Below, one piece after another: positions 8,131-60,177 of a stretch of DNA of 64,000 bases; position 1 is the stretch's first letter, and each line of letters begins with the position of its first letter. The stretch spans positions 1 to 64,000 of the forward strand of contig DATMBG010000026.1 of assembly GCA_035559535.1 (NCBI GenBank), written 5' to 3'. This DNA comes from Candidatus Limnocylindrales bacterium. GTDB taxonomy: Bacteria > Moduliflexota > Moduliflexia > Moduliflexales > JAUQPW01. The translations under genes and the position numbers were made by a program. The notes below the pieces were generated by a model. That model had not been told where the DNA came from. It made no database searches and saw nothing but the letters and a program-made list of their open reading frames with translations.

Positions 8131-8135
8131 TATTC

Positions 8136-25249: not shown

Positions 25250-26650
25250 TCAAGAGTTACCTGACCCTCGGATGGAATTTTCTCGTTTCAAATGGAATTT
25301 CTGAATTCGGTACTGTAAGGTTTTGTAGGTAATCCCCAGGAGTTCTGAAGCTCGTTTAATACTCCAGTTAGACTTGATGAGGGCGTTTTCAATAAGATTT
25401 CGTTCCACCTCAGAGAGAGATATGCCCTCATCAGGAATAGTGAGATCAAGCCCAAGGCTCTGAGACTTAGGGGCCAGGAGTTTTTGGGGAAGATCACTGG
25501 CTCGAATAATTCCATCTTCGTTTAGGAGAATCGTCCGTTCTATTACAGACTCTAATTCTCGAACATTTCCCGGCCAGGAGTAATCCAGTAATCGATCCAT
25601 GGCGTCCGGGGTTATTTTCTCAATGACTTTTCCAAACTTTTTTCCGTACTTTTTAATAAAGAAATCGATAAGCAGGGAGATGTCTTCTTTTCTCTCCCGT
25701 AACGAAGGAAGAAAAATAGGAACTACATTGAGCCGATAGTATAGATCCTGGCGGAATCGGCCTTCTTGCATTTCTTCTTCCAGGTTTTTATTGGTTGCTG
25801 CAATCACCCGTACATCTACCGTAATGACCTTATTACCACCAACCCGTTTTATTTCTCCATCCTGAAGCACCCGGAGCAATTTAGCTTGCAGAGAAATATT
25901 CAAATCCCCGATTTCATCCAGAAAAAGGGTTCCCTGGTGGGCTTCTTCAAAGATTCCTTTCTTTTGAGTATAAGCGCCGCTGAAGGATCCCTTTTCATGG
26001 CCAAACATCTCACTTTCCAGGAGGGTATCCGGAATGGCCGCGCAATTAATTGCCAGGAAAGCATGATTTTTTCGTTTACTATAAAAATGAATAGCCCTGG
26101 CCACCAATTCTTTTCCGGTTCCACTCTCCCCGTAAATAAGGACAGTGGAGTCACTGGGGGCGACCTTTTCGATAATTCTAAATACTTCCTGCATCCGAGG
26201 AGAACTTCCAATAAGGTTGTGAAACTGATACCGTTCCTCCAGTTCTTTTCGTAAGAGACGATTCTCCCGCAGCAGGGATCTGTTTTCCAGGGCTCTCTGC
26301 ACGGTTAGAAGAAGTTCTTCTTTACCGAAGGGCTTTGTAAGGTAATGGAAAGCCCCTTTTTTCATGGCTTCTACGGCAGATTCTACGGAGCCATAAGCCG
26401 TTACCACGATCACACTGGTCTCCGGACTTATTTCCTTCACTTTTCCCAACAGTTCGATCCCATCCATCTCGGGCATCTTGAGATCCGTTATAATGAGAGC
26501 TACCGAAGTTTGTTTTAGGAGTTCCAGAGCTTCCCGGCCACTTCCGGCTATAGTAACCGGATAGCCTTCATATTTTAAAATATCTCGGATGATTTCTCGT
26601 TGAAGTTTTTCATCATCTACAACGAGAATACTTTCAGAGTACTCTTTCAT
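25250..26650 (-). CDS. Sigma-54-dependent response regulator, NtrC family (partner of the 26.6-28.1 kb kinase)
   Basis: 466 residues from the ATG at 26650, which overlaps the kinase stop by 17 bases; longer readings run into the kinase gene. Receiver domain with D56 (LIITDLKMPEMDG) and acidic pair D12/D13. AAA+ domain with Walker A GESGTGKE at 174-181. The sigma-54 contact loop reads GSFSGA at 221-226 rather than GAFTGA. The T-to-S change is known in active members; the A-to-S change is unusual. C-terminal Fis-type helix-turn-helix (SNWSIKRASELLGITYKTLQYRIQKF). It is the best candidate to bind the TACCTT-N4-AAGGTA sites at 28369 and 60056. Confidence 0.95.
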   Translation of the reverse strand: MKEYSESILVVDDEKLQREIIRDILKYEGYPVTIAGSGREALELLKQTSVALIITDLKMPEMDGIELLGKVKEISPETSVIVVTAYGSVESAVEAMKKGAFHYLTKPFGKEELLLTVQRALENRSLLRENRLLRKELEERYQFHNLIGSSPRMQEVFRIIEKVAPSDSTVLIYGESGTGKELVARAIHFYSKRKNHAFLAINCAAIPDTLLESEMFGHEKGSFSGAYTQKKGIFEEAHQGTLFLDEIGDLNISLQAKLLRVLQDGEIKRVGGNKVITVDVRVIAATNKNLEEEMQEGRFRQDLYYRLNVVPIFLPSLRERKEDISLLIDFFIKKYGKKFGKVIEKITPDAMDRLLDYSWPGNVRELESVIERTILLNEDGIIRASDLPQKLLAPKSQSLGLDLTIPDEGISLSEVERNLIENALIKSNWSIKRASELLGITYKTLQYRIQKFHLKRENSIRGSGNS

Positions 26651-28112
26651 TCTGGTTCCCTCCGTTCTCCCCAAGGGGAAGGGTAATCCTGAAGGTCGTT
26701 CCCTCTCCAAGCTGGCTTTCCACTGTAATCAAGCCCCCGTGTTCCTCGATAATTTGATGGGCAATGGTCAGGCCCAATCCGGAACCCCCCTCTTTTGTTG
26801 TAAAATAAGGCTCAAAGATTTTTTCCCGATATTCGGGAGGGATGCCCTTTCCCGTATCTGAGAAGAGGATCTGGATGTTTCGCGGGGGGTATTCTGGACT
26901 TTCTCGAACTACCGGTTGAACTTGAAGGGTTAAAGTTCCTCCCCCTGGCATGGCTTGAAAAGCATTGAAAACGAGATTAAGAAAAGCGGTTTTAAGAAGC
27001 TCTTCATCGGCCAGAATTTCTATAGGGGTTGAGGGTATTTCGACCTTGATTTGAATATTTTGCTTCTCTGCTTCTGTTGCAACGAGTTGAGCAATCTGTT
27101 GAAGGAGAAGGGAGATCTGAACAGGCACTTTTTTCGCGTGGGGCGGACGCGCAAATTGTAAAAATTCAACCACCAGACGGTTAAGCCGCAAAATTTCACT
27201 CCGTATGTTATTCAGATAAGTTTCAAATTCTTGCCTTTCTTTCTCCTGGGAATTGGCCCGAGGCGCAAACCGATCTCGAACGTGATCGATGGTAAGGGCT
27301 ATGGAGTTCAGGGGATTCCGAATCTCATGGGCCAGCCTGGCTCCCAGTTCTCCAATCATAGCCAGACGCTCCGAACGCTTAATTCGCTCTTCCCAGGCTT
27401 TTTGTTGCTGTAAGCGAACGGCCATGTTATTAAATCTTTCGATTAATCGACCCAATTCGTCCTGGGTATTGGCCTTGAGTTGGACATCAAAATTCCCCTG
27501 GGCAATCTGCTCAGAAGCTTTAATGAGTTGATCAATGGGATAGATGAATCGATTGACCAGATAGATAATAATCCCGATCCCTACAATAAACGTGGTTAAG
27601 GTGAGTAAAAAATTGAGGAAGCGGGCTCGGGCTATGAGATACTTAAAATCATCTAAAAGCATGATAGCATGGGCATAGTTGGTTCCCTCTTCATTCTCTC
27701 CTATGGGGATGATAATATCGTAGCGCTTGAGCCTTTTTTCTAATTCCTTTTTCGTCTCCTCCTGTGCAGACTCTCCGACTAATCGCCGCCTCCGAAGTTC
27801 TTCAAGACTGATTCCATCATCTTTGGGATTGGAACTGAGGATCACATGGTTTTCGTCATTTAAAATGGAAATTTGATAGAGTTTATTTTTCTCGGCCAGT
27901 TGCTGTAGTATCTTTCGTTTATCCTCCGTGCTGATTCCTTCTGCAAAAATTTGATCCACATCCACCTGACCGATTTTTTCCAATGCCTTTACATGATCTT
28001 CAACCTGGGTCAAAAGCGTCCTTTCATGCCGCTGCATAGACCAGTAGGTGACCACAAGGAGTCCACCCAATAAGGTAACCATTACAAGAATAAGCTTTTG
28101 CTTGAGCGTCAT
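26634..28112 (-). CDS. Membrane sensor histidine kinase
   Basis: 492 residues. Membrane spans at about 8-24 and 166-186 flank a periplasmic sensor region of about 140 residues (rich in charged helices, KLYQISILNDENHVILSSNPKDDG, a PAS/Cache-like strand pattern). A HAMP domain follows (190-240), then the HisKA domain with H262 in ARLAHEIRNPLNS. The ATP-binding domain has an N-box (NLVFNAFQAMPGGG), G1 (DTGKGIPPEY) and G2 (GGSGLGLTIA). It phosphorylates the regulator encoded next in the operon, with overlapping genes. A GG-N10-GC promoter lies 74-88 bases upstream of its start. Confidence 0.95.
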   Translation of the reverse strand: MTLKQKLILVMVTLLGGLLVVTYWSMQRHERTLLTQVEDHVKALEKIGQVDVDQIFAEGISTEDKRKILQQLAEKNKLYQISILNDENHVILSSNPKDDGISLEELRRRRLVGESAQEETKKELEKRLKRYDIIIPIGENEEGTNYAHAIMLLDDFKYLIARARFLNFLLTLTTFIVGIGIIIYLVNRFIYPIDQLIKASEQIAQGNFDVQLKANTQDELGRLIERFNNMAVRLQQQKAWEERIKRSERLAMIGELGARLAHEIRNPLNSIALTIDHVRDRFAPRANSQEKERQEFETYLNNIRSEILRLNRLVVEFLQFARPPHAKKVPVQISLLLQQIAQLVATEAEKQNIQIKVEIPSTPIEILADEELLKTAFLNLVFNAFQAMPGGGTLTLQVQPVVRESPEYPPRNIQILFSDTGKGIPPEYREKIFEPYFTTKEGGSGLGLTIAHQIIEEHGGLITVESQLGEGTTFRITLPLGENGGNQNERVL

Positions 28113-28185: not shown

Positions 28186-28200
28186 GCAAAAAATATACCA
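28186..28200 (-). promoter_or_regulatory. Sigma-54 (-24/-12) promoter of the kinase/regulator operon
   Basis: On the minus strand: TGGTATATTTTTTGC, giving GG and GC exactly ten bases apart. It points toward the kinase gene, with a predicted start near 28173 and a 60-base leader. Its wording matches the other two candidate sites (TGGTATAG...TTGC). It implies positive autoregulation by the regulator of the same operon. Confidence 0.7.
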
Positions 28201-28269: not shown

Positions 28270-28285
28270 TACCTTATTTGAGGCA
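28270..28285. promoter_or_regulatory. Degenerate activator site
   Basis: TACCTTATTTGAGGCA keeps the left half-site of the TACCTT-N4-AAGGTA motif and part of the right half. It lies about 78 bases upstream of the kinase promoter, a suitable place for an enhancer-binding protein. Confidence 0.4.
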
Positions 28286-28368: not shown

Positions 28369-28384
28369 TACCTTTTTTAAGGTA
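28369..28384. promoter_or_regulatory. Putative upstream activator site (UAS)
   Basis: TACCTTTTTTAAGGTA is an inverted repeat with 6-base arms. The identical 16 bases, with matching flanks (AAAAAAG before, T after), occur on the minus strand at 60056-60071. It lies about 107 bp upstream of the -24 element at 28484 and about 177 bp upstream of the divergent kinase promoter, so it may serve both. The likely binder is the NtrC-type regulator of the adjacent operon. Confidence 0.65.
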
Positions 28385-28482
28385 TTTTAAGAAAAGGTTT
28401 AATGAGTTTGGTCTGAATCCCTCATCACTTAAAAAGCCCTTTAGAGTATAGTTTCCATGGATTTTTTCTTCGTCTAAAAACC

Positions 28483-28498
28483 TGGTATAGAACTTGCG
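28483..28498 (+). promoter_or_regulatory. Sigma-54 (-24/-12) promoter of the peptidoglycan-binding protein gene
   Basis: TGGTATAGAACTTGCG has GG and GC separated by exactly ten bases and a good TTGC element. The predicted start is near 28509, giving a leader of about 165 bases before the ATG at 28675. The upstream activator motif lies at 28369-28384. Confidence 0.75.
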
Positions 28499-33917: not shown

Positions 33918-35285
33918 TTAAGGTTTCAGGCCGTATTTTTCGGCCCGGTAGAGAAAAGTCTTGTAACTTAATCCCAGGAGTTTGGCTGCTTCTTTATACA
34001 CCCCCCCGGCCCGCTCGATGGCTTGAAAAATAAGGCTCTTCTCTAATTCTTCCAGGGAGATGCCTTGTTCTGGAAGACGATAAGGAACTTCCATTTTGAA
34101 ACTGGGGGTAAGAACCTCCCGGGGAAGATCGGCTACGGAGATTTCATCGGAATCGCAGAACAATAGAATTCTTTCTACGATAGATTCCAGTTGGCGGATA
34201 TTACCCGGAAAGTCGTAGTTCATAAGAACGGCCAGTGCTTCTGGAGACATCTTTGGAATCCGGGAGGTTTTATCTGAGCGGTGTCTGCGGATAAAATGTT
34301 CCACCAACAAAGGAATATCTTCTTTTCGTTCCCGGAGGGGCGGGAGGTGAATGGAAATAACATTAAGGCGATAGTACAGGTCTTCTCGAAACTCCCCTCT
34401 CTGGACGAGAGTTTGAAGATCTTTATTGGTTGCGGCGATAATTCGGACATCGATTTTGATCTGCTTAGAGCCTCCTACCCGCCTGATTTCCTTTTCTTGA
34501 AGCATTCTTAGAATTTTCGCCTGCAAAGGAAGGCTCAGATCTCCAATTTCGTCTAAAAAGAGAGTCCCCTGATGGGCGGCTTCGACCAGTCCTTTTTTTG
34601 AGGTGTTTGCACCGGTAAAGGCCCCTCGTTCATAACCGAAAAGTTCACTCTCCAGAAGGGTTTCAGGAATTGCAGCACAATTAATAGGAATAAAGGGAGC
34701 CTCTTTCCGGGGACTGTTGAAGTGAATAGCCTGAGCAACCATTTCCTTACCAGTACCACTCTCCCCATAAATCAGGATAGTTGCATCACTATCCATCACC
34801 TTTTGAAGGGTTCTAAATATTTCCTTCATTCTCCTGCTATTTCCTATAAGGTTAGGAAACTGAAATCGCTCCTGGAGTTGGTTCCGTAATCGTCGAACTT
34901 CTTGATTCAGGTGGAGGGTTTTTACAGCCCGTTCTACCACCAAAATCAGTTCATTTTTATCCAGAGGTTTGACCAGATAATCAAAGGCCCCTTTTTTCAT
35001 GGCAGCTACAGCCGTTTCAATCGTTGCGTAGGCCGTTATAAGGATAACACTAACATCGGAGCGTTGCTTGAGGATCTCCTCCAGAAAGACAAGCCCATCC
35101 ATGCCGGGCATCTTCAAGTCGGTTAATACCACTTCAACAGGTAAGGAACTCAATAATCTAAGCCCTTCTTGCGCCTGGGTAACCTGTTCTACCAGGTAAC
35201 CGGCATCTTGCAGAATTTCGGCAACCACTTTTCCCTGAGCCCGGTTATCATCTACCACTAAGATATAAACTGGGGAGGAATTCAT
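33918..35285 (-). CDS. Sigma-54-dependent response regulator, NtrC family (partner of the 35.3-37.0 kb kinase)
   Basis: 455 residues from the ATG at 35285, 32 bases after the kinase stop. Longer readings overlap the kinase. Receiver domain with D56 (VVLTDLKMPGMDG). AAA+ domain with Walker A GESGTGKE and an intact GAFTGA loop in FGYERGAFTGANTSKKG. C-terminal Fis-type helix-turn-helix (AGGVYKEAAKLLGLSYKTFLYRAEKYGLKP). It activates sigma-54 promoters in response to the co-encoded kinase. Its target sites may include the palindrome at 37169. It differs from the 25.2 kb regulator in the recognition helix, so distinct sites are expected. Confidence 0.95.
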   Translation of the reverse strand: MNSSPVYILVVDDNRAQGKVVAEILQDAGYLVEQVTQAQEGLRLLSSLPVEVVLTDLKMPGMDGLVFLEEILKQRSDVSVILITAYATIETAVAAMKKGAFDYLVKPLDKNELILVVERAVKTLHLNQEVRRLRNQLQERFQFPNLIGNSRRMKEIFRTLQKVMDSDATILIYGESGTGKEMVAQAIHFNSPRKEAPFIPINCAAIPETLLESELFGYERGAFTGANTSKKGLVEAAHQGTLFLDEIGDLSLPLQAKILRMLQEKEIRRVGGSKQIKIDVRIIAATNKDLQTLVQRGEFREDLYYRLNVISIHLPPLRERKEDIPLLVEHFIRRHRSDKTSRIPKMSPEALAVLMNYDFPGNIRQLESIVERILLFCDSDEISVADLPREVLTPSFKMEVPYRLPEQGISLEELEKSLIFQAIERAGGVYKEAAKLLGLSYKTFLYRAEKYGLKP

Positions 35286-35317
35286 CCCAACATGAAGATT
35301 GCAGAAGGCCGTTTTTC

Positions 35318-36997
35318 TTATGCCGCCGTCTGCTCTCCCTCTCCTATAGTCTGGAGACTCAGTTCGATACAAAAGGAAGTACCTTTCCCAACCTGACTGG
35401 TTACGGAAATTCGTCCATTATGAGCCTGGATAGCTCTTTGTACAATGGCCAGGCCTAATCCAATCCCATTTGCTTTGGTCGTAAAAAAGGGATTAAAAAG
35501 CTTATCCAGATGCGTTTCTTCTATTCCTGTACCTGTATCGGTTATGGTAATCTGTACATGCCGGGTTTTTTGAATGAATTCAGTTTTAACGGTCAAGGTA
35601 CCCCCCTCCGGCATCGCCTGGATGGCGTTCAAAAGTAAATTAACAAAAGCTCGTCTGAGCATCTCTGGGTCTGCCAGGAGGAGGGGAAGATTTTCTACAT
35701 ATTCCCTTTTTACCTCGATTCCAACAGAAGTCACTCCGCTCATCACTAAAGCCAGGGCATTATCCAGAAGTTCATGCAAGGAGCAAAGGACCGGATGGAG
35801 TTTAAGGGGTCGGGTATAATCCAGAAAAGCCATAACCAGGCTATCCAGTTGTTGAATTTGTTCTAAAATGATTTGGTAGAATTCCTGATATTTAGGATCC
35901 TTTCGAGCTTCCGGGCCTATAAATTTATCCTGAAAGTGTTGAATGATAAGCTTGATGGTACTTAACGGATTCTTAATCTCATGGGCAATACCTGCCGCAA
36001 TCATGGCTGCAGCCGCATTTCGCTCTGAGTGGATCAACTTTTGTTGAGTTTTCTCCAACTCTTCTATTTTTAAGGCAAGGGCCTGGTTTATCTTCTGTAA
36101 CTCGGACGTGGCCTGGTCTACCCGATCTTGAAGAGAGCGGTTAAGTTCGATAATCTCGGCTCGGGAACGCTGAAGGCTTGCGATCATGTCGTTATAAGCG
36201 GCGGCCAATTGTCCCAGTTCACGGGGCCTCTTTACCTCTAACTTATAAGAAAAATTTCCCATTCGAACCGTCTGAATCCCATCTGTCAAGATCTGGAGAG
36301 GATGAATGATGATCCGTCTCAGGCAATACCAGATTACCAGGATAATGGCAGCCAGAGAGCTCAGAAAAACCAACAGGGATTTAAGTAAAGAAGCCTGAAT
36401 TTGGGCCAAAACCTCATCCAGAGAAATTTCAATCCCAATACTTCCAATAACTTGATTTTGGTTATCATGGAGGGGCGAAATAACCTCCCAGACATAAAGT
36501 TGATCCCTATGAAGAAGAGATCTGATAACTTCCTTAAAACCGATCTGTTCCCGGGAGAAATGATAACGATCTTCACCACTCTGTCGGTCCACAATCTCTA
36601 AATTGATAAGAGGTGTGTCGGTTTGAATAACCTGGCCCTCTAAAGGATTTGGACCTGTTCCTTTTTCTCTGGGATTGGTGGTAGCTGCAAGATAAAACTG
36701 ATCCGGTGCGGTGGGGACAGGAACCACAATATCAATCTCGTTAATATCCGGTCGTGAAGCTTTGAGATCCAAAATCTTTTGCTGGAGTCCTTCTACATCT
36801 TCTATTTCCTGCCTGCTTTTGATACTGATATCAAAAATTCTGGCCAGTACCAGGGCTTTATCTTTAAGTTGATGGTTCAGGCTATCCGATAAAATAGAAA
36901 GGTGCAAAACAGTTGCCATCAGACTAATCCCGGCAACAGAGAGGGAAACTAGGCTAATGAGGGTAGTTTGTAAAGTTTTAGGAAATCGGGCGCTCAT
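35318..36997 (-). CDS. Membrane sensor histidine kinase
   Basis: 559 residues from the ATG at 36997; a TTG at 37033 would lie upstream of the predicted transcription start. First span about 10-33 (TLISLVSLSVAGISLMATVLHL), a periplasmic sensor domain of about 170 residues with Cache-like wording (INEIDIVVPVPTAPDQFYLAATTNP, VWEVISPLHDNQNQVIGSIGIEIS), second span about 205-227, HAMP, a long coiled coil (about 270-330), HisKA with H339 (AAGIAHEIKNPLSTIKL) and an HATPase domain (NLLLNAIQAMPEGG, DTGTGIEETH, GIGLGLAIVQRAI). It signals to the NtrC-type regulator encoded next in the operon. Confidence 0.94.
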   Translation of the reverse strand: MSARFPKTLQTTLISLVSLSVAGISLMATVLHLSILSDSLNHQLKDKALVLARIFDISIKSRQEIEDVEGLQQKILDLKASRPDINEIDIVVPVPTAPDQFYLAATTNPREKGTGPNPLEGQVIQTDTPLINLEIVDRQSGEDRYHFSREQIGFKEVIRSLLHRDQLYVWEVISPLHDNQNQVIGSIGIEISLDEVLAQIQASLLKSLLVFLSSLAAIILVIWYCLRRIIIHPLQILTDGIQTVRMGNFSYKLEVKRPRELGQLAAAYNDMIASLQRSRAEIIELNRSLQDRVDQATSELQKINQALALKIEELEKTQQKLIHSERNAAAAMIAAGIAHEIKNPLSTIKLIIQHFQDKFIGPEARKDPKYQEFYQIILEQIQQLDSLVMAFLDYTRPLKLHPVLCSLHELLDNALALVMSGVTSVGIEVKREYVENLPLLLADPEMLRRAFVNLLLNAIQAMPEGGTLTVKTEFIQKTRHVQITITDTGTGIEETHLDKLFNPFFTTKANGIGLGLAIVQRAIQAHNGRISVTSQVGKGTSFCIELSLQTIGEGEQTAA

Positions 36998-37035
36998 AGA
37001 ATAATTAGATTCTGTAAATTTCTGAATTGTCAAGA

Positions 37036-40166: not shown

Positions 40167-40200
40167 GAGTAACGCCCCGAATTGCCACCTGGAGTTAAAA

Positions 40201-41952
40201 ATGGATGGGCTAGCAAGCAGAAATCGTTATATTTGGAAACTCTTACCGATAGAAAGCAGGATATTAACAGCATTAGATAAAGATTCCCAACAGCAACGGT
40301 GGATAGTTATTTACTGGCTGATTGCTGGCGTGATGGGCGCCATTCGTACCTGGGCTACCCGTCATACCATGAATGCCGATGGAATCTCCTATCTTGACAT
40401 GGGAGATGCGTATTTACGGGGTGACTGGAGTATGGCCCTTAATACCCTTTGGAGTCCATTCTACTCCTGGCTATTAGGTCTGGCTTTATTGGTCTTGAAA
40501 CCTTCACCGTATTGGGAGTTTACCGTTGTACATCTCGTAAACTTTATTATTTACATATGGGCATTAAGTTGTTTTCATTTCTTTTTGTTTGAATGGATTC
40601 ATTATAACGGAGGTCCGTCAATCCGGTTTTCCAAAGATAGATATAGAGTTCTGCCTGAAGGGCTGTGGCTGTCATTGGGTTACATCCTGTTCATCTGGTC
40701 TTCTTTAGAATTGATAACTCTCTCGGCGGTAACTCCTGACTTGTGTGTTGCCGCATTTGTTTATTTAGCTTCAGGTCTGTTATTACGTATCCGCAAGAAG
40801 TCCACAAGCTGGTTCCCATTTGTACTTTTGGGAGCAACCCTTGGCTTGAGTTATCTCACGAAAGCTTTTATGTTCCCTCTGGCTTTTATCTTTCTTGGAG
40901 TTAGTATACTGGTTGATAACCCACGGATAACAGTACTACGTACCCTGATAGCCTTAATGGTGTTTCTCTTGATTACAAGCCCTTTCATCATTGCTCTCTC
41001 CAAAGTTAAAGGCCGATTAACTTTTGGTGACAGCGGGAAATTGAACTATGTCTGGCACGTCAACGAGATCCCCGGTCGTCATTGGCAAGGCGACTCGCTG
41101 GACCATAAACCGCTTGTACATCCTACACAGCAAATATATGAAGTCCCGCCGGTCTATGAATTTGCATTCCCGGTTGGGGGTACTTATCCCCCTTGGTACG
41201 ATCCAAGTTATTGGTATGAGGGTGTTAAACCACATTTTAGGATTATTCAACAAGCTAAAGCCCTTCTGAGAAACTTATGCGTTTATTTCAGATTGTTGTT
41301 GGGTCCAGTTGGTGCATTAATGATCGGTTTATCCATACTGTTCTATAAGAGTGGCCAGGGACCAGAGTCTCTTAGAGATATAAGAGTCTATTGGCCACTT
41401 CTCATTCCAGTACTTACAGCACAAGGCTTGTTTTTACTGGTCCATGTAGAGCGTCGTTATATTGCACCTTTTATCGTAATCACGTTGGTAGTTTTATTTG
41501 CCGGGATTCGTTTAACTCATACCAATAAAAGATTAGTTCCCACTTTAACTCTTGCCGTTTTAATGGCATTTATCCTCTCAACCGTTCCAAAAACTGTTGG
41601 AGATGTTCTTTCCATACCTTGGGGCCAGCCTCATATTTACTGGCAGGTGGCCGAGGGCTTAAAGCGTATAGGAGTACAACCCGGAGACAAAGTCGCGTCA
41701 ACTAGTTATAGCCATTCTATCAATGTGAAGTGGGCCCGGCTTGCCCGTGTTCAAATCATTGCCGAAGTTTACAGTCAGGAAGGGGATGGATTTTGGACAG
41801 CAAGTCCTGTAATCCGAGAGCAAATTCTGGCTGCTTTTGCCAAGGCAGGTGCTAAGGTAGTTGTTACCGATATGATCCCAGATTCAGTTGATAAGGCGGG
41901 GTGGCAACAGGTAGGAGACACAGGGTATTACGCTTATTTCTTAGCCAGGTAA
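40201..41952 (+). CDS. Membrane glycosyltransferase, GT39-like family
   Basis: 583 residues from the ATG at 40201, which has GGAG seven bases before it; an upstream start at 40132 overlaps the GT2 gene. About eleven spans. The first external loop carries the catalytic acidic residues of GT-C enzymes (TRHTMNADGISYLDMGDAYLRGDW). Further spans include ILFIWSSLELITLSAVTPDLCVAAFVYLASGLLL. The C-terminal part (KRIGVQPGDKVASTSYSHSINVKWARLARVQIIAEV) is a soluble domain ending ...VGDTGYYAYFLAR. It is likely to act with the GT2 enzyme on a lipid-linked sugar, extending the glycan or decorating a protein. Confidence 0.88.
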   Translation: MDGLASRNRYIWKLLPIESRILTALDKDSQQQRWIVIYWLIAGVMGAIRTWATRHTMNADGISYLDMGDAYLRGDWSMALNTLWSPFYSWLLGLALLVLKPSPYWEFTVVHLVNFIIYIWALSCFHFFLFEWIHYNGGPSIRFSKDRYRVLPEGLWLSLGYILFIWSSLELITLSAVTPDLCVAAFVYLASGLLLRIRKKSTSWFPFVLLGATLGLSYLTKAFMFPLAFIFLGVSILVDNPRITVLRTLIALMVFLLITSPFIIALSKVKGRLTFGDSGKLNYVWHVNEIPGRHWQGDSLDHKPLVHPTQQIYEVPPVYEFAFPVGGTYPPWYDPSYWYEGVKPHFRIIQQAKALLRNLCVYFRLLLGPVGALMIGLSILFYKSGQGPESLRDIRVYWPLLIPVLTAQGLFLLVHVERRYIAPFIVITLVVLFAGIRLTHTNKRLVPTLTLAVLMAFILSTVPKTVGDVLSIPWGQPHIYWQVAEGLKRIGVQPGDKVASTSYSHSINVKWARLARVQIIAEVYSQEGDGFWTASPVIREQILAAFAKAGAKVVVTDMIPDSVDKAGWQQVGDTGYYAYFLAR

Positions 41953-42054
41953 ATAAACCAGTTGATCTGGTACAAACTTTTACCTTCAGATTCTCCCATA
42001 TAGGGTCAGAATAGACTTCAGGGTAAACCTGGAGGTTAAGGATATTTCCTCGAC

Positions 42055-42855
42055 TTAGGGAAACCAGTATGTTAAACCCGGCCGAATTAAAACTGCCCGG
42101 TTATTGTCGTAGCTTACGCCTAGGGAGAGAAAAAGGTTAGGATAAAGGTAATAACGGGTTCCTAATGTCCCGACCAGTTCGCCTCCTGCTGCTTCCGGTA
42201 CCACAGCGTTTTCGTTGCCTGAGCTACTTCCTTCTCCGGTATTAGGCGAGGAGGAGGTATTACCAAAAACTTCCCCGACAATGTCGAACTTTTTATTGAG
42301 ATGATATTCCTCAGCCAGGGCAAAACCGAAGATGTTGTTTAACTGGACTCCTGAAGGTTCTCCGATGATGGTATAGCTGATATTGGCATGGGTATCGAAT
42401 TTGCCAAATCGTTTGCTGGCAATGAGGTATCCGGTGCAATCGGTTTTTCCGGTACCGATAAGAATATCATCCGCCGTTGGAAGCTTTACTTCAACGGCAG
42501 TGGCAAGTGCAGGGAACTTTAGGCTCTCGTACCAAAAAAGATAGGAAAGAGTTACCTCCAAGTCTCCAAGCCCGGTTGCCTGCCGTCCTTGCTTCGGGCG
42601 AATGGCTGTATAGAAAACCGGCTCCACCAAAAGCTCTAGATTGTCGGTTATACCATACTCAATTGCCATGGGTACAGCCGTCTCCGTCCCTTCGGAAGAA
42701 GTTTGATACTCAAAGGTGTTTTCCACCTTAAACCATCCTGCTTTAAGGGGTCGTGCCGTTTCTGTCTCGAGGGGCTGTCCAGCATAAAGAAGAGTAGAAG
42801 GTACCCACCACATCCATAGACCCAGTCCAATAAGAAAACGATAAAAATTTATCAT
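42055..42855 (-). CDS. Outer-membrane protein, MetA-pathway (PF13557-like) family
   Basis: 266 residues from the ATG at 42855; 8 upstream residues are possible from 42879. Signal peptide 1-25 (FLIGLGLWMWWVPSTLLYAG). The mature part is a beta-barrel: FKVENTFEYQTSSEGTETAVPMAIEYGITDNLELLVEPVFYTAIRP, GLGDLEVTLSYLFWYESLKFPALATAVEVKLPTAD, and strands to the C-terminal RPGLTYWFP. The wording GLGDLEV...VEVKLPT is typical of the 'putative MetA-pathway of phenol degradation' barrels, often annotated as transporters. It is the last gene in the same direction as the ABC-2 export operon and may be its outer-membrane partner. Confidence 0.8.
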   Translation of the reverse strand: MINFYRFLIGLGLWMWWVPSTLLYAGQPLETETARPLKAGWFKVENTFEYQTSSEGTETAVPMAIEYGITDNLELLVEPVFYTAIRPKQGRQATGLGDLEVTLSYLFWYESLKFPALATAVEVKLPTADDILIGTGKTDCTGYLIASKRFGKFDTHANISYTIIGEPSGVQLNNIFGFALAEEYHLNKKFDIVGEVFGNTSSSPNTGEGSSSGNENAVVPEAAGGELVGTLGTRYYLYPNLFLSLGVSYDNNRAVLIRPGLTYWFP

Positions 42856-42948
42856 GAATCTTCCATCTCCTTTCTCCATGGCGAGAGCAGGGGATAAAAA
42901 TCAAGCTATTTCCCCCTGCTCCCAGGGAGTTTCCTGACTACAACAATT

Positions 42949-43362
42949 TTAATCTTGTCCGTTATCTACTCTAACCACCTGTCCGGTTGTAGCATCTACC
43001 TTCACGTCGCTGATTCCCTTGGAAGTCTGAATCTCAACAGAATAAACAATCTGTCCATTCTCATCATCAAGGGTAACCCGGAGTACGGTACCACTTACAA
43101 CTGCCAAGGCAGCAGCCTTTGCTTGATCGGGCGTAATTCTGGCAAGGCTCGGATCAACAGGCTGATCAGACATATCTGATATCCCTGAAGAATCCTCCAT
43201 ACCTGAAGAATCTTCTATATTGGAATTCTGTGAGCTCGATGAAAATTGGGTTGAACTGGAGCTGGTTGTTGGGGAAGTGGGGGAACGCGAGGATTTACCA
43301 CATCCAGCGAAGAAAATGAAGAATATCCCTAAGACCAAAAATACTGGAATGGGTCGTTTCAT
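42949..43362 (-). CDS. PepSY-domain lipoprotein
   Basis: 137 residues. Lipoprotein signal with lipobox IFFAGC, so C21 is the likely lipidated residue. A long Ser/Thr/Asn-rich low-complexity linker follows (22-65), then one PepSY domain (about 75-135: RITPDQAKAAALAVVSGTVLRVTLDDENGQIVYSVEIQTSKGISDVKVDATTGQVVRVD). PepSY domains inhibit peptidases or bind cell-wall metal or peptide ligands. A homologous domain is found in the protein at 45967-46386. A GCAGGGG/CCCCTGC hairpin lies between this gene and the barrel gene downstream (42885-42921). Confidence 0.9.
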   Translation of the reverse strand: MKRPIPVFLVLGIFFIFFAGCGKSSRSPTSPTTSSSSTQFSSSSQNSNIEDSSGMEDSSGISDMSDQPVDPSLARITPDQAKAAALAVVSGTVLRVTLDDENGQIVYSVEIQTSKGISDVKVDATTGQVVRVDNGQD

Positions 43363-43631
43363 AGGGTCACTTCTCCTTTCGGTAAAGATTACGTAGAGGC
43401 ACAGTGGAAGTTAGGGTTTAGAAAGTTTCGGTAACCCGAGTAACTTCCACATCTAATCTAGTACAAGAATCTAGTACAAGAAGGATGCCACTCAGAAATT
43501 TAAGATGAAAAGATCTCGCAAGGTCAAGGGAGGTAGGCTACTTGAGTAAAGAAGGTTTACCGGAAAGCCAACTGACTGAGTCCTTAAAACAGCACCCCGA
43601 AATCCTGAATTGAAGACCGAAGCTCGAGACC

Positions 43632-44201
43632 TTAGTTCTCAGTTCGGTCAAGGAAGGTTCTGTTTTTCAAGGATTTTGTATGCAAACTTCCGAATAGGAA
43701 TAAAAGGAATAAAGGTTCTCCTATAGAAACAAAAAGAATTCGGTCTGAAGCCAGGGTAGGCTTAGGTTGGATATCAAAAGGTATGAGATCACTCACGATA
43801 GGCCGACTTTCCTGAGGGTTAATTACCGTTAAGAGTATGCCAAACTTTCCAGCCTGAATTAGCCTCATATCCCACCCCTGGGTATGGGTTTCGCCTGCCG
43901 ACAATTGATGTATATGGATGGCTGTCTGCGCCGACCAATCTTCAAGATCTACCGGATGTTCCTTGCCTGGTTCTAGAGATAGCAAGGCTATATAAGCTGT
44001 GAGTCCTTTTAAAGGTTGGGGTCCGAGGTTTTTAACAGTGCCAATGAAAGTCGGAGTGTTACCCATTTTCAAAATTTCATCTGGGCGTTGCAGGGTTACC
44101 TGGATCGAAAGCGTATTTGCTGCAGGAGCAATCCTTGTGCCGGGTAAAGAGAGAACAATCCCTATGAAAAGACCTAGGCTTTTTAAGTGGAGATACCTCA
44201 T
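43632..44201 (-). CDS. Exported membrane-anchored beta-domain protein of the ABC-2 operon
   Basis: 189 residues. Signal peptide about 1-28 (LFIGIVLSLPGTRIAPAA). The middle is a CARDB/NEW3-like beta-sandwich (LSIQVTLQRPDEILKMGNTPTFIGTVKNLGPQPLKGLTAYIALLSLEP). A C-terminal span (ILFVSIGEPLFLLFLFGSLH) anchors it, leaving a short basic tail inside. Its start overlaps the permease stop by 4 bases (ATGA), so it is translated with the exporter genes. It probably acts outside the inner membrane as a component or chaperone of the exported substrate. I know of no defined function. Confidence 0.75.
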   Translation of the reverse strand: MRYLHLKSLGLFIGIVLSLPGTRIAPAANTLSIQVTLQRPDEILKMGNTPTFIGTVKNLGPQPLKGLTAYIALLSLEPGKEHPVDLEDWSAQTAIHIHQLSAGETHTQGWDMRLIQAGKFGILLTVINPQESRPIVSDLIPFDIQPKPTLASDRILFVSIGEPLFLLFLFGSLHTKSLKNRTFLDRTEN

Positions 44202-44950
44202 AATTCGATGTTCCTCGTCGTTTTATAAAGGAGCCAGAAGACTATAAAGGAATAACAGCTCAAGAGGGTCAGCCTTAAAAGTTGAAAGGTTATTCCCTGC
44301 CCGTCAATCACCACGCTATCAAGCGTGTTTAATGCATTTGCAAAGGGATTTATGAGATCGATCACCTGTCCTACAGCAGTTTGCCTTAACGAAGGTCCTA
44401 AAAGAATGGGGCTTCCAGACAAGAGAAAAATAATCAGATTGGCCCATAACACATTTTTGAAGGATTTCATCCTGGCGGACAATATCAAAGCCAAACCACC
44501 AAAAATTAAAACCAATAAGGTTCCTACTAGGGATAGATATTTCATAGAAGGCCAGAGGTTTTGTCCAAGATTCCCTACGGCCCAGAGATAGGGGATTGAA
44601 AGGGCCAAAAGAATCAACCAGGAAAACAGAATTCCCATCAGTTTGGTGAATGCCAAGTCCTGTCCTGTAACTGGTGTCAACATTAAGATTTCTAAGGTTT
44701 TCCGATCCCGCTCTCCGGCAAAGCCATCACTTCCTCGTATTATGGCAACCAATGAGGCCATGGTAATAATGATGCCGCTCATCATATACACCGCTTGCGC
44801 GTTGTCTATCAAGCTTAATTCTGTATTGCTGACCAGCAGGATGGAGAACATGCTGAGAATAACAGTGGTCACAACGAGGAGAAGAATCCCTCGCGTTGCC
44901 AGGAGATCTTCGAGGAATTCTTTTTTAATTAAAGGTACCCAGGTATTCAT
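44198..44950 (-). CDS. ABC-2 type exporter permease (NosY/CcmB-like group)
   Basis: 250 residues with six spans: ILLLVVTTVILSMFSILLV, AVYMMSGIIITMASLVAI, FSWLILLALSIPYLWAV, MKYLSLVGTLLVLIFGGLAL and two more near the C terminus. The cytoplasmic loop GFAGERDRKTLEILMLTPVTGQDLAFTKL is the typical ABC-2 coupling motif. It overlaps the ATPase gene by 4 bases upstream and the beta-domain gene by 4 bases downstream, so all three are one transcript. It exports an unknown substrate or performs membrane maturation. Confidence 0.93.
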   Translation of the reverse strand: MNTWVPLIKKEFLEDLLATRGILLLVVTTVILSMFSILLVSNTELSLIDNAQAVYMMSGIIITMASLVAIIRGSDGFAGERDRKTLEILMLTPVTGQDLAFTKLMGILFSWLILLALSIPYLWAVGNLGQNLWPSMKYLSLVGTLLVLIFGGLALILSARMKSFKNVLWANLIIFLLSGSPILLGPSLRQTAVGQVIDLINPFANALNTLDSVVIDGQGITFQLLRLTLLSCYSFIVFWLLYKTTRNIEL

Positions 44951-45861
44951 GCCATACCTCCTGTGGTGTAAGCAAGATAGAGATCTTCTAGCTTATCGGA
45001 GACATCTTCAACTTCGATAATCGGTAGTCCGCTGTTGATAAGGGTTTTAATAACCATGGTTGGAGTCATATCCTCAACCAGACAGGTCATCCAATCTCCT
45101 TTCCTTTCAATCAACGATATACCCGGATAACTCCAAGTTGAAGGGAGTTGATAGCCATTTTCTAAATGAAAACGATAACGGCGGATGGATGGTTTGTTAA
45201 GAGAAGAGGTAAGCATTCCTTCATAGCGGACTTTTCCTTTATCCAAAATAGCGATGCGGGTGCATAAACGTTCCACATCATCCAGAATATGGGTAGAAAT
45301 AACCAGAGTCGTGGCTTTTTCTCGATTCAGCTTAAGCAAAAGATCATGGATCTCTCTTCTTCCTCGTGGATCCAAGCCATTGGTTGGCTCATCCAGGAAT
45401 AGAACTTCAGGATTGTTTATCATAGCCCGCGCAATCCCCAACCGTTGTTTCATTCCTTGGGAAAAGGTCCTGATAGGACGACTATCACCGGGTTCCAATC
45501 CAACCTGTTGCAACCAGTCCTGATAATCATCCAGAGTAAGGGCAATATCATAGAGTTGACCAAAAAAGCTCAGGTAACTTAGGGCTGACATCCATCCGTA
45601 AAGGCCATAGGATTCAGGTAAGGCATTGACCCTTTGACGTAACTGCGGACCGGCTAAGAAAGGGTCCATTCCCAATACCGTTATAACTCCTTCATCAGGC
45701 TTGAGAATACCTAAAAGGATACGTAGTGTGGTTGTCTTGCCCGAGCCATTGGGTCCTAAAAGGCCATAGATATCTCCCGAGTGAACTACCAGGGAGATAT
45801 CCTCCAGAACAAGCCTTTCCTCAAAGGTTTTTTTCAAACCATAAACTTCTACAGGATTCAT
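44947..45861 (-). CDS. ABC exporter ATP-binding protein (CcmA/NosF-type)
   Basis: 304 residues. Walker A GPNGSGKT at about 37-44, Q-loop, signature FSQGMKQRLGIARAM near 133-147, Walker B EVLFLDEPTNGLDP near 152-165, and a C-terminal extension of about 85 residues typical of drug and Nos/lipoprotein-type exporters. It energises the permease encoded next. A 31-base direct repeat precedes the gene. The operon also contains two PepSY proteins and an outer-membrane barrel on the same strand. Confidence 0.95.
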   Translation of the reverse strand: MNPVEVYGLKKTFEERLVLEDISLVVHSGDIYGLLGPNGSGKTTTLRILLGILKPDEGVITVLGMDPFLAGPQLRQRVNALPESYGLYGWMSALSYLSFFGQLYDIALTLDDYQDWLQQVGLEPGDSRPIRTFSQGMKQRLGIARAMINNPEVLFLDEPTNGLDPRGRREIHDLLLKLNREKATTLVISTHILDDVERLCTRIAILDKGKVRYEGMLTSSLNKPSIRRYRFHLENGYQLPSTWSYPGISLIERKGDWMTCLVEDMTPTMVIKTLINSGLPIIEVEDVSDKLEDLYLAYTTGGMA

Positions 45862-45868
45862 GAAAACC

Positions 45869-45965
45869 TCCTTGAAGGGTTTCTTACTACAGAATTAGCT
45901 TAGGCCATAATGCTCGAAGTCCCCTCCTCCTGCATCCTTGAAGGGTTTCTTACTATAGAATTAGC
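45869..45965. repeat. 31-bp direct repeat
   Basis: TCCTTGAAGGGTTTCTTACT at 45869 continues through AGAATTAGC to 45899 and recurs at 45935-45965 with one change (C to T). The spacing is 66 bases from start to start. The second copy ends next to the stop of the PepSY gene and the first lies in front of the ATPase start, so the Shine-Dalgarno region is duplicated. Confidence 0.75.
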
Positions 45966-45966
45966 C

Positions 45967-46386
45967 CTAATCCTCCTCTTCTTCGTTTTCTCGTTCTCTG
46001 TTTTTATGTTTCTTACCCTCACGGTGATCTGCCGAGTGTTGGTCTAACTTCAAAACCGAACCGGTTCCTGCGTCGATCTTAACATCTGTTATGGACTTGT
46101 CGCCAGAGACAATCTCTACCCCGTAAACCAGGTAATCGTTCTCATTCTCCAGTTCTATTTTGAGAACCTTACCTGGAACCCTGGTAAGAGCAGTTTGCAT
46201 AGCTTCTTGTAAAGAAATCTTTGCCATATCGGGGAAGTCACTTCGTTCTGCCTGGCCAACGATAATAGAACCCTTGTAAGAAGGTTCTTGAACTTTGTTA
46301 CTTTTTTCTTCTGCATATATACTGGTGGAGATCCCTATAAGTAGTAACAAAACAGGGATTTTAAGAACATGGTTAATTTTTCTCAT
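45967..46386 (-). CDS. Periplasmic PepSY-domain protein
   Basis: 139 residues. Signal peptide 1-25 (NHVLKIPVLLLLIGISTSIYA). A PepSY domain lies at about 55-115 (ISLQEAMQTALTRVPGKVLKIELENENDYLVYGVEIVSGDKSITDVKIDAGTGSVLKLD). The C-terminal tail is extremely charged (HREGKKHKNRERENEEEED). It is the first gene of the ABC-2 operon; the second PepSY protein is a lipoprotein at the operon end. PepSY proteins bind metal or peptide ligands and inhibit proteases. The pair may protect or present the exported product. Confidence 0.88.
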   Translation of the reverse strand: MRKINHVLKIPVLLLLIGISTSIYAEEKSNKVQEPSYKGSIIVGQAERSDFPDMAKISLQEAMQTALTRVPGKVLKIELENENDYLVYGVEIVSGDKSITDVKIDAGTGSVLKLDQHSADHREGKKHKNRERENEEEED

Positions 46387-47144
46387 AATTCTTCTCCTTT
46401 CATAGGAAGTTTGTTAAAAACTCCTCAATATTTCTTCTGATACCCCATTTGAAGGATTCCTTACCAGAGGTCATGCCGGGTTGAAGAAAACATCGTTCCC
46501 TTCAGGTTGGCAAGACCCTTGGTTTTTCACCCGAGGTGGCCTTGGCTTTCAGGGGTAAATGTTTTTCTAACCTAACCCTCTTCCTGTGTTGGGAGGGGGA
46601 AACCCAGGGATTATCTGGACCCAACTCTCCCCTTAACGACCTATCTACTCCAAATTCAACGCAAGAAGAGTGCCATCCAAAAGTAAGGCAGAAAATCTCG
46701 CAGGATCATCCGGACCCTTGATCAAGGACGGTTATAAATACCTAATTCAGGACTTTTTAATCCTCTTTTAGGGATTCTATCCTGGTAATACCCATTCCGA
46801 TTGAAGAGGTTGCATCTTGGGAGGGGACAACGCTAGGTGGCCCTTAACAGGCAGCCTCTTCCTTCCCTCCTTGCCTGCGGGGAGGGTTAGAGTGGACTAT
46901 GCCTGCTTTACACCCCATTTCAATACCGACCTGGTATAAAGGGAGCAACTTTTAATGGGGACCTAGGACGGAAATTTGTGGCATCAGATTTGTAGGCTAA
47001 ATGGGTGCAAAAGAGCATTAAGGGACCTCTCCTTAACAGAGCTTCGCTCTGAATCTAACAAGTTGTGGATAGCTCTTTCAAAGAAGAAGGCTGTCCATAA
47101 CTTAATTTTTTAGAAATCCTTATAGAGGTTATTTTAGCATTTTT
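46387..47144. other. Divergent region rich in dispersed repeats
   Basis: Contains the dispersed repeat copy 3 (46545-46633, matching 32680-32765), a stretch 46908-46938 matching the reverse complement of 39171-39204, a candidate GG-N10-GC site (TGGTATAAAGGGAGC, 46932-46946) of low quality, and the TGGCATCAGATTTGTA motif at 46979-46994. No gene is seen. It is the promoter region of the efflux/lipid operon (rightward) and of the PepSY/ABC operon (leftward). Confidence 0.55.
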
Positions 47145-57066: not shown

Positions 57067-58356
57067 CTACGGTTTTCCAGGTCCGGTCATCGTCAGGGGA
57101 GGTAAATCGCGACTGATATCTTGAATAACCCGGAGGATTCGGCGGATATCTTGGGGTTGGAGTCCCGAGTAAACGGGCAATTGTAGGGTTCCTTCGGTTG
57201 ATTCGGCATGGGGACACGGGGAGGTGTAAGGAGCAAATAGCTCCAAGCGGGTACATATGTCCACATGCATGATTTCCATATCTATACCACGGCGGATTGC
57301 GCGACGGCTTAAGGTAATGGGATCTGAGGTGCGTATGCAATATTGGTAATAAACCGGCGAGGTATAAGGAAGGGTCTGGGGTGGCAAAATCGATTGGATT
57401 TCTTTCAAGCCTTCCGTCAATCGGCGGGCATGTTCTTGACTCTTTGCATTCAATTTATCAATTACTTCCAGTACTTTCAGTCCGATGACGGCCTGGGCAT
57501 TACTATAACGTCGTCGATAGGCTGAAGGTAGCGGATCCAGGGGTCGAATTTTTTCCCAAATGTAACGTGTTAAATCATGGTGTCCGAAGAAGGAGGCAAT
57601 GTAAAAAGCCGGAAAAAGACTGAAAGTAAACCCATAGGGGCTGATGAAAGCCCGTTGAAGATATCCGGAGAACAGTTTCGATATAACCTCCCTGGTTGAA
57701 GGCCAGGGTTCTGCTTCGGCCAGTTGCCGAATTCGTTCGGCCAGCCGGTCATCGTTAGTGATGGCCATTCCTCCCCCGTAAGTATTCAATCCTTTGAGCA
57801 TTTGAAAGCTAAAGAAAGCAGCATGACCAAATGTTCCAGTTTTAGATCCTCGATAGGTAGCTCCAATGGCATGGGCGCAATCCTCGATGACATAAAGTCC
57901 ATGCTGTTTTGCAATGGCTAAGATAGGGTCCATATCGCAGGGTTGTCCGTAGAGATGAGTCGGTACGATGATTCGTGTTCGCTCGGTTATTACGGTCGAA
58001 AGAGCCTGAGGGTCCAAATTGTAGGTATAAGGATCAATATCGACGAATACAGGCCGTAATCCTGCCACCCGTGCCATTTCAGGAATAACCCAAAACGTCA
58101 GGGCAGGGAAGATAATTTCGGAGCCGGGGGGCAGGTCCAACGCCCGAAGGATATAATAAAAGGCCATACGTCCGTATGAAGCCGTGATAGCATGGCGAAC
58201 ACCATGATAAGCAGCAAACTTCTCTTCAAATTGTCGAATGGCGGGGCCCTGAACCCCCTGACCCCTCAAAAATGTTTTAAGTAAAGCCTGAGTGGTTCCG
58301 GGGACCTGCCGGGCGCCATAACGTGCGATAGTTCGAATCATATTCTCTTTGTCCAT
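57067..58356 (-). CDS. DegT/DnrJ/EryC1/StrS-family aminotransferase
   Basis: 429 residues from the ATG at 58356; a TTG at 58383 is an alternative start. PLP fold-type-I enzyme: ASYGRMAFYYILRALDLPPGSEIIFPALTF, IIVPTHLYGQPCDMDPI, D159 in VIEDCAHAIGATY, and the Schiff-base lysine K188 in FSFQMLKGLNTYGGGMAI. It transaminates a keto-sugar or a similar carbonyl compound. The upstream partner is a B12/radical SAM protein behind a sigma-54-like promoter, so the two probably form one regulated biosynthetic unit. A 12-base hairpin covers its start codon. Confidence 0.9.
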   Translation of the reverse strand: MDKENMIRTIARYGARQVPGTTQALLKTFLRGQGVQGPAIRQFEEKFAAYHGVRHAITASYGRMAFYYILRALDLPPGSEIIFPALTFWVIPEMARVAGLRPVFVDIDPYTYNLDPQALSTVITERTRIIVPTHLYGQPCDMDPILAIAKQHGLYVIEDCAHAIGATYRGSKTGTFGHAAFFSFQMLKGLNTYGGGMAITNDDRLAERIRQLAEAEPWPSTREVISKLFSGYLQRAFISPYGFTFSLFPAFYIASFFGHHDLTRYIWEKIRPLDPLPSAYRRRYSNAQAVIGLKVLEVIDKLNAKSQEHARRLTEGLKEIQSILPPQTLPYTSPVYYQYCIRTSDPITLSRRAIRRGIDMEIMHVDICTRLELFAPYTSPCPHAESTEGTLQLPVYSGLQPQDIRRILRVIQDISRDLPPLTMTGPGKP

Positions 58357-58408
58357 TGTCCATGGGCCTTCAGGATTTGTCAAGTATAAAGAACCCTGGA
58401 CAATGGAC
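58351..58408 (-). promoter_or_regulatory. Hairpin covering the DegT start codon
   Basis: GTCCATTGTCCA (58351-58362) and TGGACAATGGAC (58397-58408) are perfect 12-base arms. On the minus strand the loop holds the end of the intercistronic leader, and the distal arm contains the start codon of the aminotransferase gene. This could sequester the start, coupling it to translation of the radical SAM gene, or reduce expression. Confidence 0.5.
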
Positions 58409-58412
58409 GGTA

Positions 58413-59816
58413 TCAGCTAATCGCTTTAGGCTCCTGAGAGGTAAAATAAGCCATTTCAATCTCACGTTGACGCCGTTGGGCATACGCATCCCAGCGTTGG
58501 ACCCATTTGGCAAAACAATTTGGAAGCCCCAGATAATTCCATCCCCAGGAGGGTCGGATATAGAACCGGCTATAGGCGGTCGTAAGCATAAATAGAAGTT
58601 GTTCATGGGTTAGGTTAGGGTGTTTAAAAGTAGGAGTATAGCCATCGAATTTCTCTAAATCAGTTTCGGTAATAAGAGACTCCATGCGTTTACGAAGAGG
58701 GGTTCCGGGGTAAGGGGTCAGAATCTTAAACAGGGCCATCGTACTATTTAAATCGATGGAATAATCAATGGTAGCCTGGATACTTTCTATGGTATCGGTT
58801 AAGAACCCTATTACATAGAACCCCACCGTCATGATTCCTTTTTTACTACAATAAGAGATGATGTCCTTTTGGTGTTCCGGAGGGATAGGTCTTCGGCCAA
58901 CGCGCTTGAGGGTATTGGAATCGACCGACTCTACTCCAAAGGTTAGAGCACGCAATCCGGCTCTATAGAGGAGATCAATCAACTCTTTATCTAAACTATC
59001 CAGTCTGGTCTCACACTCAAATCGGACCGGAAGGTTCTTGCGGATGATTCCTTCGGCAATCGCCATACTCCGGTCTCTTTCCTCTGTAAAGAGAGGATCC
59101 CGGAAGACCAGGAAAACTCTACCGTATTGACGGCAAATCTGCTCAATCTCTTCAAGCACATTTTGGGGACTACGGGCCCGATAAACTGCCGTAATACGAT
59201 GAGGACAATACGTACAGAACTCCGGACAACTTCGGCTGGATAGTAAAGGAAAAACCGATCGCATGGAGAAGAGGGAATGACCTACGGCATGGCCGAATCT
59301 TCTTCGGTACACTAAATCCCATCGAGGAAACGGTAAAGAATCCAGATCCTGGATGGTCGAACTGACAACGGGACCCTTCAAGATTTCGCCCTGGGCTAAC
59401 CGCAGGGCAGCATGCTCGGGTTCTCCTTTAATGATGAAATCCCCATGACCGGCTAATACTTCTGGGACATGGGTTGCAAAAGTCCCAAAAAATCCAACCT
59501 GCATTCCATATCTTCGCCTGGCTTCTTCCGCCCATTGAATCTCATGTCGAAAATCTACAATTGAGGTTAAGACCAGGGCCAGATCTCCCGGTATCCACTT
59601 GTTATCCGTTACATAAACCTCGTGTCCGGCCTGGGCAAAAATAGCAGCCAGATAACCGAGTTGAATACTGGGCAAATTCCGATAAAGCTTCCGCATCCGT
59701 TCCACCACACGAGTCGTCCATGAAATACCCCGAAACCGGGACCCATAACCCCCGGCAATAGTATCTTTACTGACCACTCCGTTTTGTCCTTTTAAATCTG
59801 CCAAGACTACTCGCAT
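58413..59816 (-). CDS. B12-binding-domain radical SAM protein
   Basis: 467 residues from the ATG at 59816, which has GGGGAGGG about five bases upstream on the minus strand. The N-terminal part (about 1-145) is a cobalamin-binding-like Rossmann region (LGYLAAIFAQAGHEVYVTDNKW, FFGTFATHVPEVLAGHGDFIIKGEPE). The radical SAM core has CxxxCxxC as C197-C201-C204 (SCPEFCTYC) and continues with FRDPLFTEERDR, CETRLDSLDKELIDLLYRAG, LTFGVESVDSNTLKRVGR and ILTPYPGTPLRKRME. The family does methylations and ring rearrangements in lipid, hopanoid and antibiotic pathways. Co-transcription with the DegT enzyme suggests a modified amino-sugar or lipid product. Confidence 0.93.
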   Translation of the reverse strand: MRVVLADLKGQNGVVSKDTIAGGYGSRFRGISWTTRVVERMRKLYRNLPSIQLGYLAAIFAQAGHEVYVTDNKWIPGDLALVLTSIVDFRHEIQWAEEARRRYGMQVGFFGTFATHVPEVLAGHGDFIIKGEPEHAALRLAQGEILKGPVVSSTIQDLDSLPFPRWDLVYRRRFGHAVGHSLFSMRSVFPLLSSRSCPEFCTYCPHRITAVYRARSPQNVLEEIEQICRQYGRVFLVFRDPLFTEERDRSMAIAEGIIRKNLPVRFECETRLDSLDKELIDLLYRAGLRALTFGVESVDSNTLKRVGRRPIPPEHQKDIISYCSKKGIMTVGFYVIGFLTDTIESIQATIDYSIDLNSTMALFKILTPYPGTPLRKRMESLITETDLEKFDGYTPTFKHPNLTHEQLLFMLTTAYSRFYIRPSWGWNYLGLPNCFAKWVQRWDAYAQRRQREIEMAYFTSQEPKAIS

Positions 59817-59931: not shown

Positions 59932-59946
59932 GCAAATCCTATACCA
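59932..59946 (-). promoter_or_regulatory. Sigma-54 (-24/-12) promoter of the radical SAM/DegT pair
   Basis: On the minus strand: TGGTATAGGATTTGC, with GG and GC exactly ten bases apart and TTTGC at -12. The -24 half (TGGTATAG) equals that of the 28483 promoter. The predicted start near 59920 gives a leader of about 100 bases. A TACCTT-N4-AAGGTA site lies at 60056-60071. Confidence 0.75.
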
Positions 59947-60055: not shown

Positions 60056-60099
60056 TACCTTAAAAAAGGTAAACTTTTTTGTTCTACCTTAAATCGGGT
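60056..60099 (-). promoter_or_regulatory. Putative upstream activator sites (UAS pair)
   Basis: TACCTTAAAAAAGGTA at 60056-60071 is the exact reverse complement of the site at 28369-28384; the flanks also agree. It lies about 119 bp upstream of the -24 element. A second, weaker copy (TACCTTAAATCGGGTA, 60084-60099) lies 28 bases further upstream. Two spaced sites are usual for NtrC-type activators. Confidence 0.65.
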
Positions 60100-60177
60100 A
60101 TATCTTCCCGGATTTATGAAGTAGCCGGAGAGAAAACCAGATTAGGCAGGATAAGGTATCATTGATGTCCAGTTGGA

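Follow-up and report, generated by a model that had tools for sequence, protein, structure and literature searches.

The window analyzed here is a 64-kb stretch of DNA (64,000 nucleotides) that carries, on its minus strand, the genes for a membrane sensor histidine kinase and an NtrC-class response regulator and, divergent from them, the gene for a small exported protein with a peptidoglycan-binding domain (Table 1). Farther along the window lie the genes for a radical SAM protein and a DegT-type aminotransferase, and many envelope genes surround this operon, encoding an efflux pump, proteins with lysyl-phosphatidylglycerol synthase domains, and a VTT-domain protein. The open reading frame of the regulator was listed to position 26710; its probable start, the ATG at 26647, lies within the last bases of the kinase gene. 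The regulator matched PF00072, PF00158, and PF02954, all above the cut-off, and thus has the domain set of the NtrC class. Against the model for the PrsK/PrsR PEP-CTERM regulators (PEP_resp_reg, TIGR02915) it scored 442 bits, below the cut-off of 502.6.

We compared the locus with draft assemblies of one close relative from the same genus (G001) and two family-level relatives from the same order (G002 and G003). The loop through which the regulator would contact sigma-54 reads GSFSGA in both genus members and GAFTGA in the orthologs of G002 and G003. GSFSGA was found in 2 of the 79 loops counted at related loci, one of the two being the G001 ortholog. In PspF, the conserved threonine of the GAFTGA loop is critical (PMC2941729), so a regulator with the GSFSGA loop need not be able to activate through sigma-54.

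Table 1. Genes, predicted sigma-54 promoters, and candidate upstream activating sites (UAS) in the window
Feature	Position	Strand	Remarks
NtrC-class response regulator	25250..26647	-	Receiver, sigma-54 AAA+ with GSFSGA loop, Fis-type HTH; predicted palindrome binder
Membrane sensor histidine kinase	26634..28112	-	HAMP, HisKA, HATPase
Sigma-54 -24/-12 promoter of kinase/regulator operon, TGGTATATTTTTTGC	28186..28200	-	In front of kinase gene
UAS2, TACCTTATTTGAGGCA	28270..28285	+	~-102 from predicted kinase-operon start; TACCTTATTTGAGGTA in G001
UAS1 of peptidoglycan-binding gene, TACCTTTTTTAAGGTA	28369..28384	+	Exact match; centre ~-132 from predicted start; candidate main upstream activating site of 28483 promoter
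Sigma-54 -24/-12 promoter of peptidoglycan-binding protein gene, TGGTATAGAACTTGC	28483..28497	+	Exact
Target: secreted His/Lys-rich protein, 130 aa	28675..29067	+	PG_binding_1 domain; 88% identical in G001
Target: DegT/DnrJ/EryC1/StrS-type aminotransferase	57067..58383	-	Same strand as radical SAM gene, 29 bp downstream of it
Target: radical SAM protein	58413..59816	-	ORF listed to 59864; ATG at 59816 has ribosome site before it
Sigma-54 -24/-12 promoter of radical SAM/DegT operon, TGGTATAGGATTTGC	59932..59946	-	Exact
UAS1 of radical SAM operon	60056..60071	-	Exact 16-mer; ~-142 to -143 from predicted start
UAS2 of radical SAM operon, TACCCGATTTAAGGTA	60085..60100	-	~-171 to -172 from predicted start; CACCTGATTTAAGGTA in G001

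The initial annotation had pointed to a palindromic 16-mer in front of the peptidoglycan-binding gene and to its exact reverse complement in front of the radical SAM gene, and both copies were confirmed by exact matching. Both are intergenic and lie 31 kb apart, and each is accompanied by a weaker second copy and by a strong -24/-12 promoter in the correct orientation. Of the two second copies that had been proposed, the degenerate one at 28270 stood as described, while the one near the radical SAM operon had been placed one base off (at 60084-60099). The two predicted target promoters likewise matched exactly and were oriented as claimed, with gaps of 98 bp (28369 site) and 109 bp (60056 site) between the palindrome and the -24 element. 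UAS2 and UAS1 in the kinase-peptidoglycan-binding gene region are 99 bp apart; UAS2 is at -231 from the predicted start of the peptidoglycan-binding gene, and UAS1 is at -202 from that of the kinase gene. Within the window, the palindrome was matched six times at ≤3 mismatches, compared to 1.4 matches expected, and a count of six was reached in none of 100 shuffles.

A third sigma-54 promoter, absent from the initial annotation, precedes the kinase gene. Because it would drive the kinase/regulator operon, the circuit appears to be autoregulated. The three promoters score ~12.4 bits each in the sigma-54 matrix, whereas the next-best site in the same intergenic regions scores 7.2. The genome encodes rpoN, and the pattern TGGYATN5TTGC occurs 93 times genome-wide versus 8 times for the reversed pattern, indicative of a real set of sigma-54 promoters; ~28 full-length AAA+ enhancer-binding activators were counted as well. 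Apart from the regulon considered here, such a large apparent promoter set, together with so many enhancer-binding proteins, is an observation in its own right for a little-studied lineage. When the 350 bp upstream of each of 113 sigma-54-like sites from the genome (TGGYATN5TTGC plus the TGGCAC class) were screened, TACCTN6AGGTA was present upstream of 3 of the 113, namely, the three promoters in the window. By chance, ~0.08 independent loci of this type would be expected (P ~0.003 for two, Poisson), an estimate that takes no account of conservation or of the second palindrome copies. The arrangement is that of a sigma-54 regulon, with predicted -24/-12 promoters and candidate activator sites roughly 80 to 200 bp upstream of the start.

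By count, the palindrome is not enriched in the genome. Pattern searches of the 5.6-Mb genome and of the sequence stretches around the matches, with the reversed pattern as the control, found TACCTTN4AAGGTA three times (3 for the control) and the looser TACCTN6AGGTA 12 times (16 for the control). Its specificity is instead positional, since both intergenic copies of TACCTTN4AAGGTA precede sigma-54 promoters. The third copy was rejected as a member because it lies inside the coding sequence of the alanine racemase gene (alr), as it does in G001. Long reading frames contain all but four of the TACCTN6AGGTA sites, i.e., two in the window and two others, and neither of the latter two stands at a suitable distance in front of a sigma-54-like promoter. 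The remaining sites were rejected as either coding or devoid of a correctly placed promoter, and the genome-wide excess of palindrome/promoter pairs that had been anticipated did not materialize, with no further members being found.

These elements are shared by the two genus members. G001 keeps all three promoters, the second copies, and both exact 16-mers, each 16-mer in front of the orthologous target gene. Its kinase ortholog is full length and 98% identical, and its radical SAM ortholog, 97% identical, carries the promoter and UAS. The palindromes and promoters are identical to those of G001 at 106 of 109 positions, compared to 84.6% for the other intergenic columns (binomial P ~2e-5); the power of this test is limited by how closely the two genomes are related. 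The longest invariant runs span 40 nucleotides at the 28369 palindrome, 54 at the 60056 palindrome, and 70 at the kinase promoter. The two targets are ~14 kb apart in G001 rather than 31 kb, because the window region from 40.2 to 55.8 kb is absent from that place.

This ~15.6-kb segment (40182-55830), which includes an RND efflux system, an ABC transporter, and a gene with a lysyl-phosphatidylglycerol synthase domain, is not at the orthologous place in G001, where the radical SAM side directly joins the 39-kb side. The palindrome GGGGCGTACGGCCGTACGCCC is repeated at window positions 101-149 and 55803-55851 within 49-mers that are 80% identical and 55.7 kb apart, and the second copy is at the edge of the missing segment. 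Two dispersed intergenic repeats, one of 150 bp (window 46786-46939) and one of 66 bp (positions 68036-68103 of contig 26 of this genome), have two and several relatives, respectively, in G001 contig C57. Arrays of an 8-base unit (GTATGGGA/GTGTGGGA) were also observed at 1924-2113, 7910-8136, and 63208-63271; in the first two arrays, the unit is followed by its reverse complement (TCCCATAC-like), such that each could form a long hairpin.

The system can be followed into another family. The best match to the kinase is full length both in G003 (46% identical, 448 bits, with the next-best match there at 169) and in G002 (43%, 409 bits), and the adjoining regulator orthologs are 68% and 65% identical, respectively. 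The HTH of the window regulator is identical at 25 of 28 positions to those of these orthologs; in this comparison, the DNA-binding helix reads NWSIKK/RASELLGISYKTLQYRIQKYHLK versus NWSIKRASELLGITYKTLQYRIQKFHLK. Both genomes have the gene order htrA-kinase-regulator divergent from hsp20-lon, the HtrA/DegP, Hsp20, and Lon neighbors being assigned by family. The htrA-hsp20 gap of G003 contains TACCTTATATGAGGTA and TACCTTATTTCAGGCA, one perfect palindrome and one copy with a single mismatch, 98 bp apart (L281 8301 and 8399); this spacing is like that of the UAS pair in the window, as is the sequence class. The corresponding gap in G002 contains GACCTCATATCAGGTA, one mismatch from the palindrome. 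Since perfect palindromes number only 4 in the 8.4 Mb of G003, the chance of finding one in the 0.7-kb gap is ~3e-4. Sigma-54-like sites (TGGCATGATCTTTGTA and TGGCACGGTCTTTGTA) precede htrA-kinase-regulator in the two genomes, with 124 and 126 bp between the palindrome and the predicted start and with a -12 element that ends in GT rather than GC. On the hsp20-lon side, TTGACA-type sequences are present, and a good sigma-54 site is lacking.

Because the palindrome adjoins the orthologs of the 25250-26647 regulator in the other family, it is tied to this regulator rather than to a second NtrC-class regulator encoded in the window at 33918-35372. This result favors the earlier proposal that the adjacent kinase/regulator pair is the controller, with binding itself being predicted. 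Among the nearest 80 regulator relatives in public genomes, all but the same-genus one differed in the DNA-binding helix and lacked paired sites. In the genome under study, no perfect palindrome was present in the htrA and hsp20 genes that were found or in the flanks examined; the stretches around them (L294, L295, L296, and L303) gave only single one-mismatch matches, counted irrespective of promoter position, and none was convincing. Near the htrA/hsp20/lon locus of G003, a gene for a PEP-CTERM-type protein (L281 17151-17789) has a 7/7 sigma-54 promoter, TGGCATCTCACTTGCA, at 18166 (-). A further palindrome-like match there, TACCTTGATCCAGGTA at L281 18030, was judged to be due to chance, as it lies downstream of the sigma-54 promoter of the PEP-CTERM-like gene.

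We considered whether the palindromes might instead be sites of the second regulator, which, together with its kinase (35318-37033), lies between the two palindromes in both genus genomes. The two regulators are 51% identical overall, and their HTH regions are partly similar (recognition helix SYKTFLYR versus TYKTLQYR). However, no good palindrome accompanies the operon of the second regulator, which is preceded by a conserved sigma-70-like TTGACA region, whereas the palindrome accompanies the orthologs of the first regulator into another family and sits beside their operon; we therefore regard the second regulator as an unlikely owner of the sites. Just as improbable, in our judgment, is that the palindromes bind another type of factor, such as a dimeric repressor, or that sigma-70 promoters drive the genes and the sigma-54 sites are incidental. 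The unremarkable genome count of the 16-mer, the deviant GSFSGA loop, and the TTGACA-type sequences at hsp20-lon are all compatible with this possibility, but the three strong sigma-54 sites of the two intergenic regions each have a palindrome at the distance of an enhancer and do not vary between the species, and a sigma-54-like site recurs at a similar spacing in G002 and G003. It is also true that a repeated 16-mer is by itself not rare in 64 kb and that the loose motif shows no excess across the genome, as would be expected if A/T-rich palindromes merely happened to repeat. Nevertheless, the promoter-specific placement, the invariance, and the recurrence beside orthologous regulators make such a coincidence scarcely credible.

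Taken together, these results make it very probable that the kinase/regulator operon, the peptidoglycan-binding gene, and the radical SAM/DegT operon form a small autoregulated sigma-54 regulon. The initial annotation had counted the latter two as members, which our data bear out, but it had left out the operon of the regulator itself. At the level of sequence, the sites and promoters, their joint conservation, their exclusive pairing in this genome, and the association of the palindrome with orthologs of the regulator are all established; physical binding, phosphotransfer, the use of sigma-54, and a stress signal are inferred. The membrane kinase would sense a signal, probably cell envelope or protein-folding stress, and phosphorylate the adjacent regulator. 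The regulator would then bind the paired TACCT-N6-AGGTA palindromes (at 28270, 28369, 60056, and 60085) 100 to 170 bp upstream and, through looping and ATP hydrolysis, open RNA polymerase-sigma-54 at the three promoters (28200 [-], 28483 [+], and 59946 [-]), with activation of its own operon amounting to positive autoregulation.

The ancestral role of the system was probably a response to envelope or protein quality stress, since HtrA, Hsp20, and Lon adjoin it in the relatives and the targets in the window include a secreted peptidoglycan-binding protein. For this genome, the stress role is extrapolated from those relatives, and the targets appear to have changed between the families, because its own htrA and hsp20 genes show no convincing palindrome. 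With two genomes to go by, the choice of the ancestral target set is a guess. These considerations raise the broader proposal, for and against which we see the case as evenly balanced, of an undescribed family of sigma-54 envelope/protein quality stress systems that was ancestrally arranged as htrA-kinase-regulator divergent from hsp20-lon around a TACCT-N6-AGGTA pair ~98 bp apart, in which the genus studied here kept the enhancers and regulator but exchanged the targets, a peptidoglycan-binding protein and a radical SAM/DegT operon being the new ones. The regulon type is already known; the change of targets is the unusual and interesting part. The analysis provides a specific candidate operator, derived from sequence alone, for a regulator of an uncultured, barely described lineage. 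It also suggests that an activator and its enhancer can survive family-level divergence while their targets change, with envelope proteins taking the place of proteases and chaperones, and, beyond the well-studied Proteobacteria, it points to envelope protein quality control by way of sigma-54.

A literature search for the TACCT-N6-AGGTA motif returned nothing relevant. Several known systems resemble the one described here. In enteric bacteria, ZraSR/ZraP mediates a zinc-dependent envelope stress response through sigma-54 promoters controlled by the regulator (PMC4987338). As in that system, a kinase/NtrC-class regulator operon is divergent from a small exported protein gene, and both have sigma-54 promoters, which are predicted in our case. 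In contrast, the exported protein here has a peptidoglycan-binding domain and is not ZraP, and the window system has an additional, distant radical SAM operon. Since the regulator reached 429.5 of the 760 bits required for ZraR and the kinase 202 of the 479 required for ZraS, we do not file the system as ZraSR, even though it would work like it. HsfBA of Myxococcus xanthus, in which an NtrC-like response regulator directly controls the Lon-type heat shock gene lonD and others (PMC9109919), offers a precedent for control of lon by such a regulator, HsfA being likened to the window regulator by description. It differs in that HsfB is a hybrid kinase and in that Lon is a divergent neighbor only in the family of G002 and G003 and is absent from the window. 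The sigma-54 response regulators of Desulfovibrio vulgaris belong to another lineage, and TACCT-N6-AGGTA was not met in the available parts of the paper describing them (PMC4641369). Many of their motifs belong to a single regulator, the largest group of functions concerns the cell exterior, and most of the regulators control one to four operons, such that a regulon of this size would be usual for a regulator of this kind.
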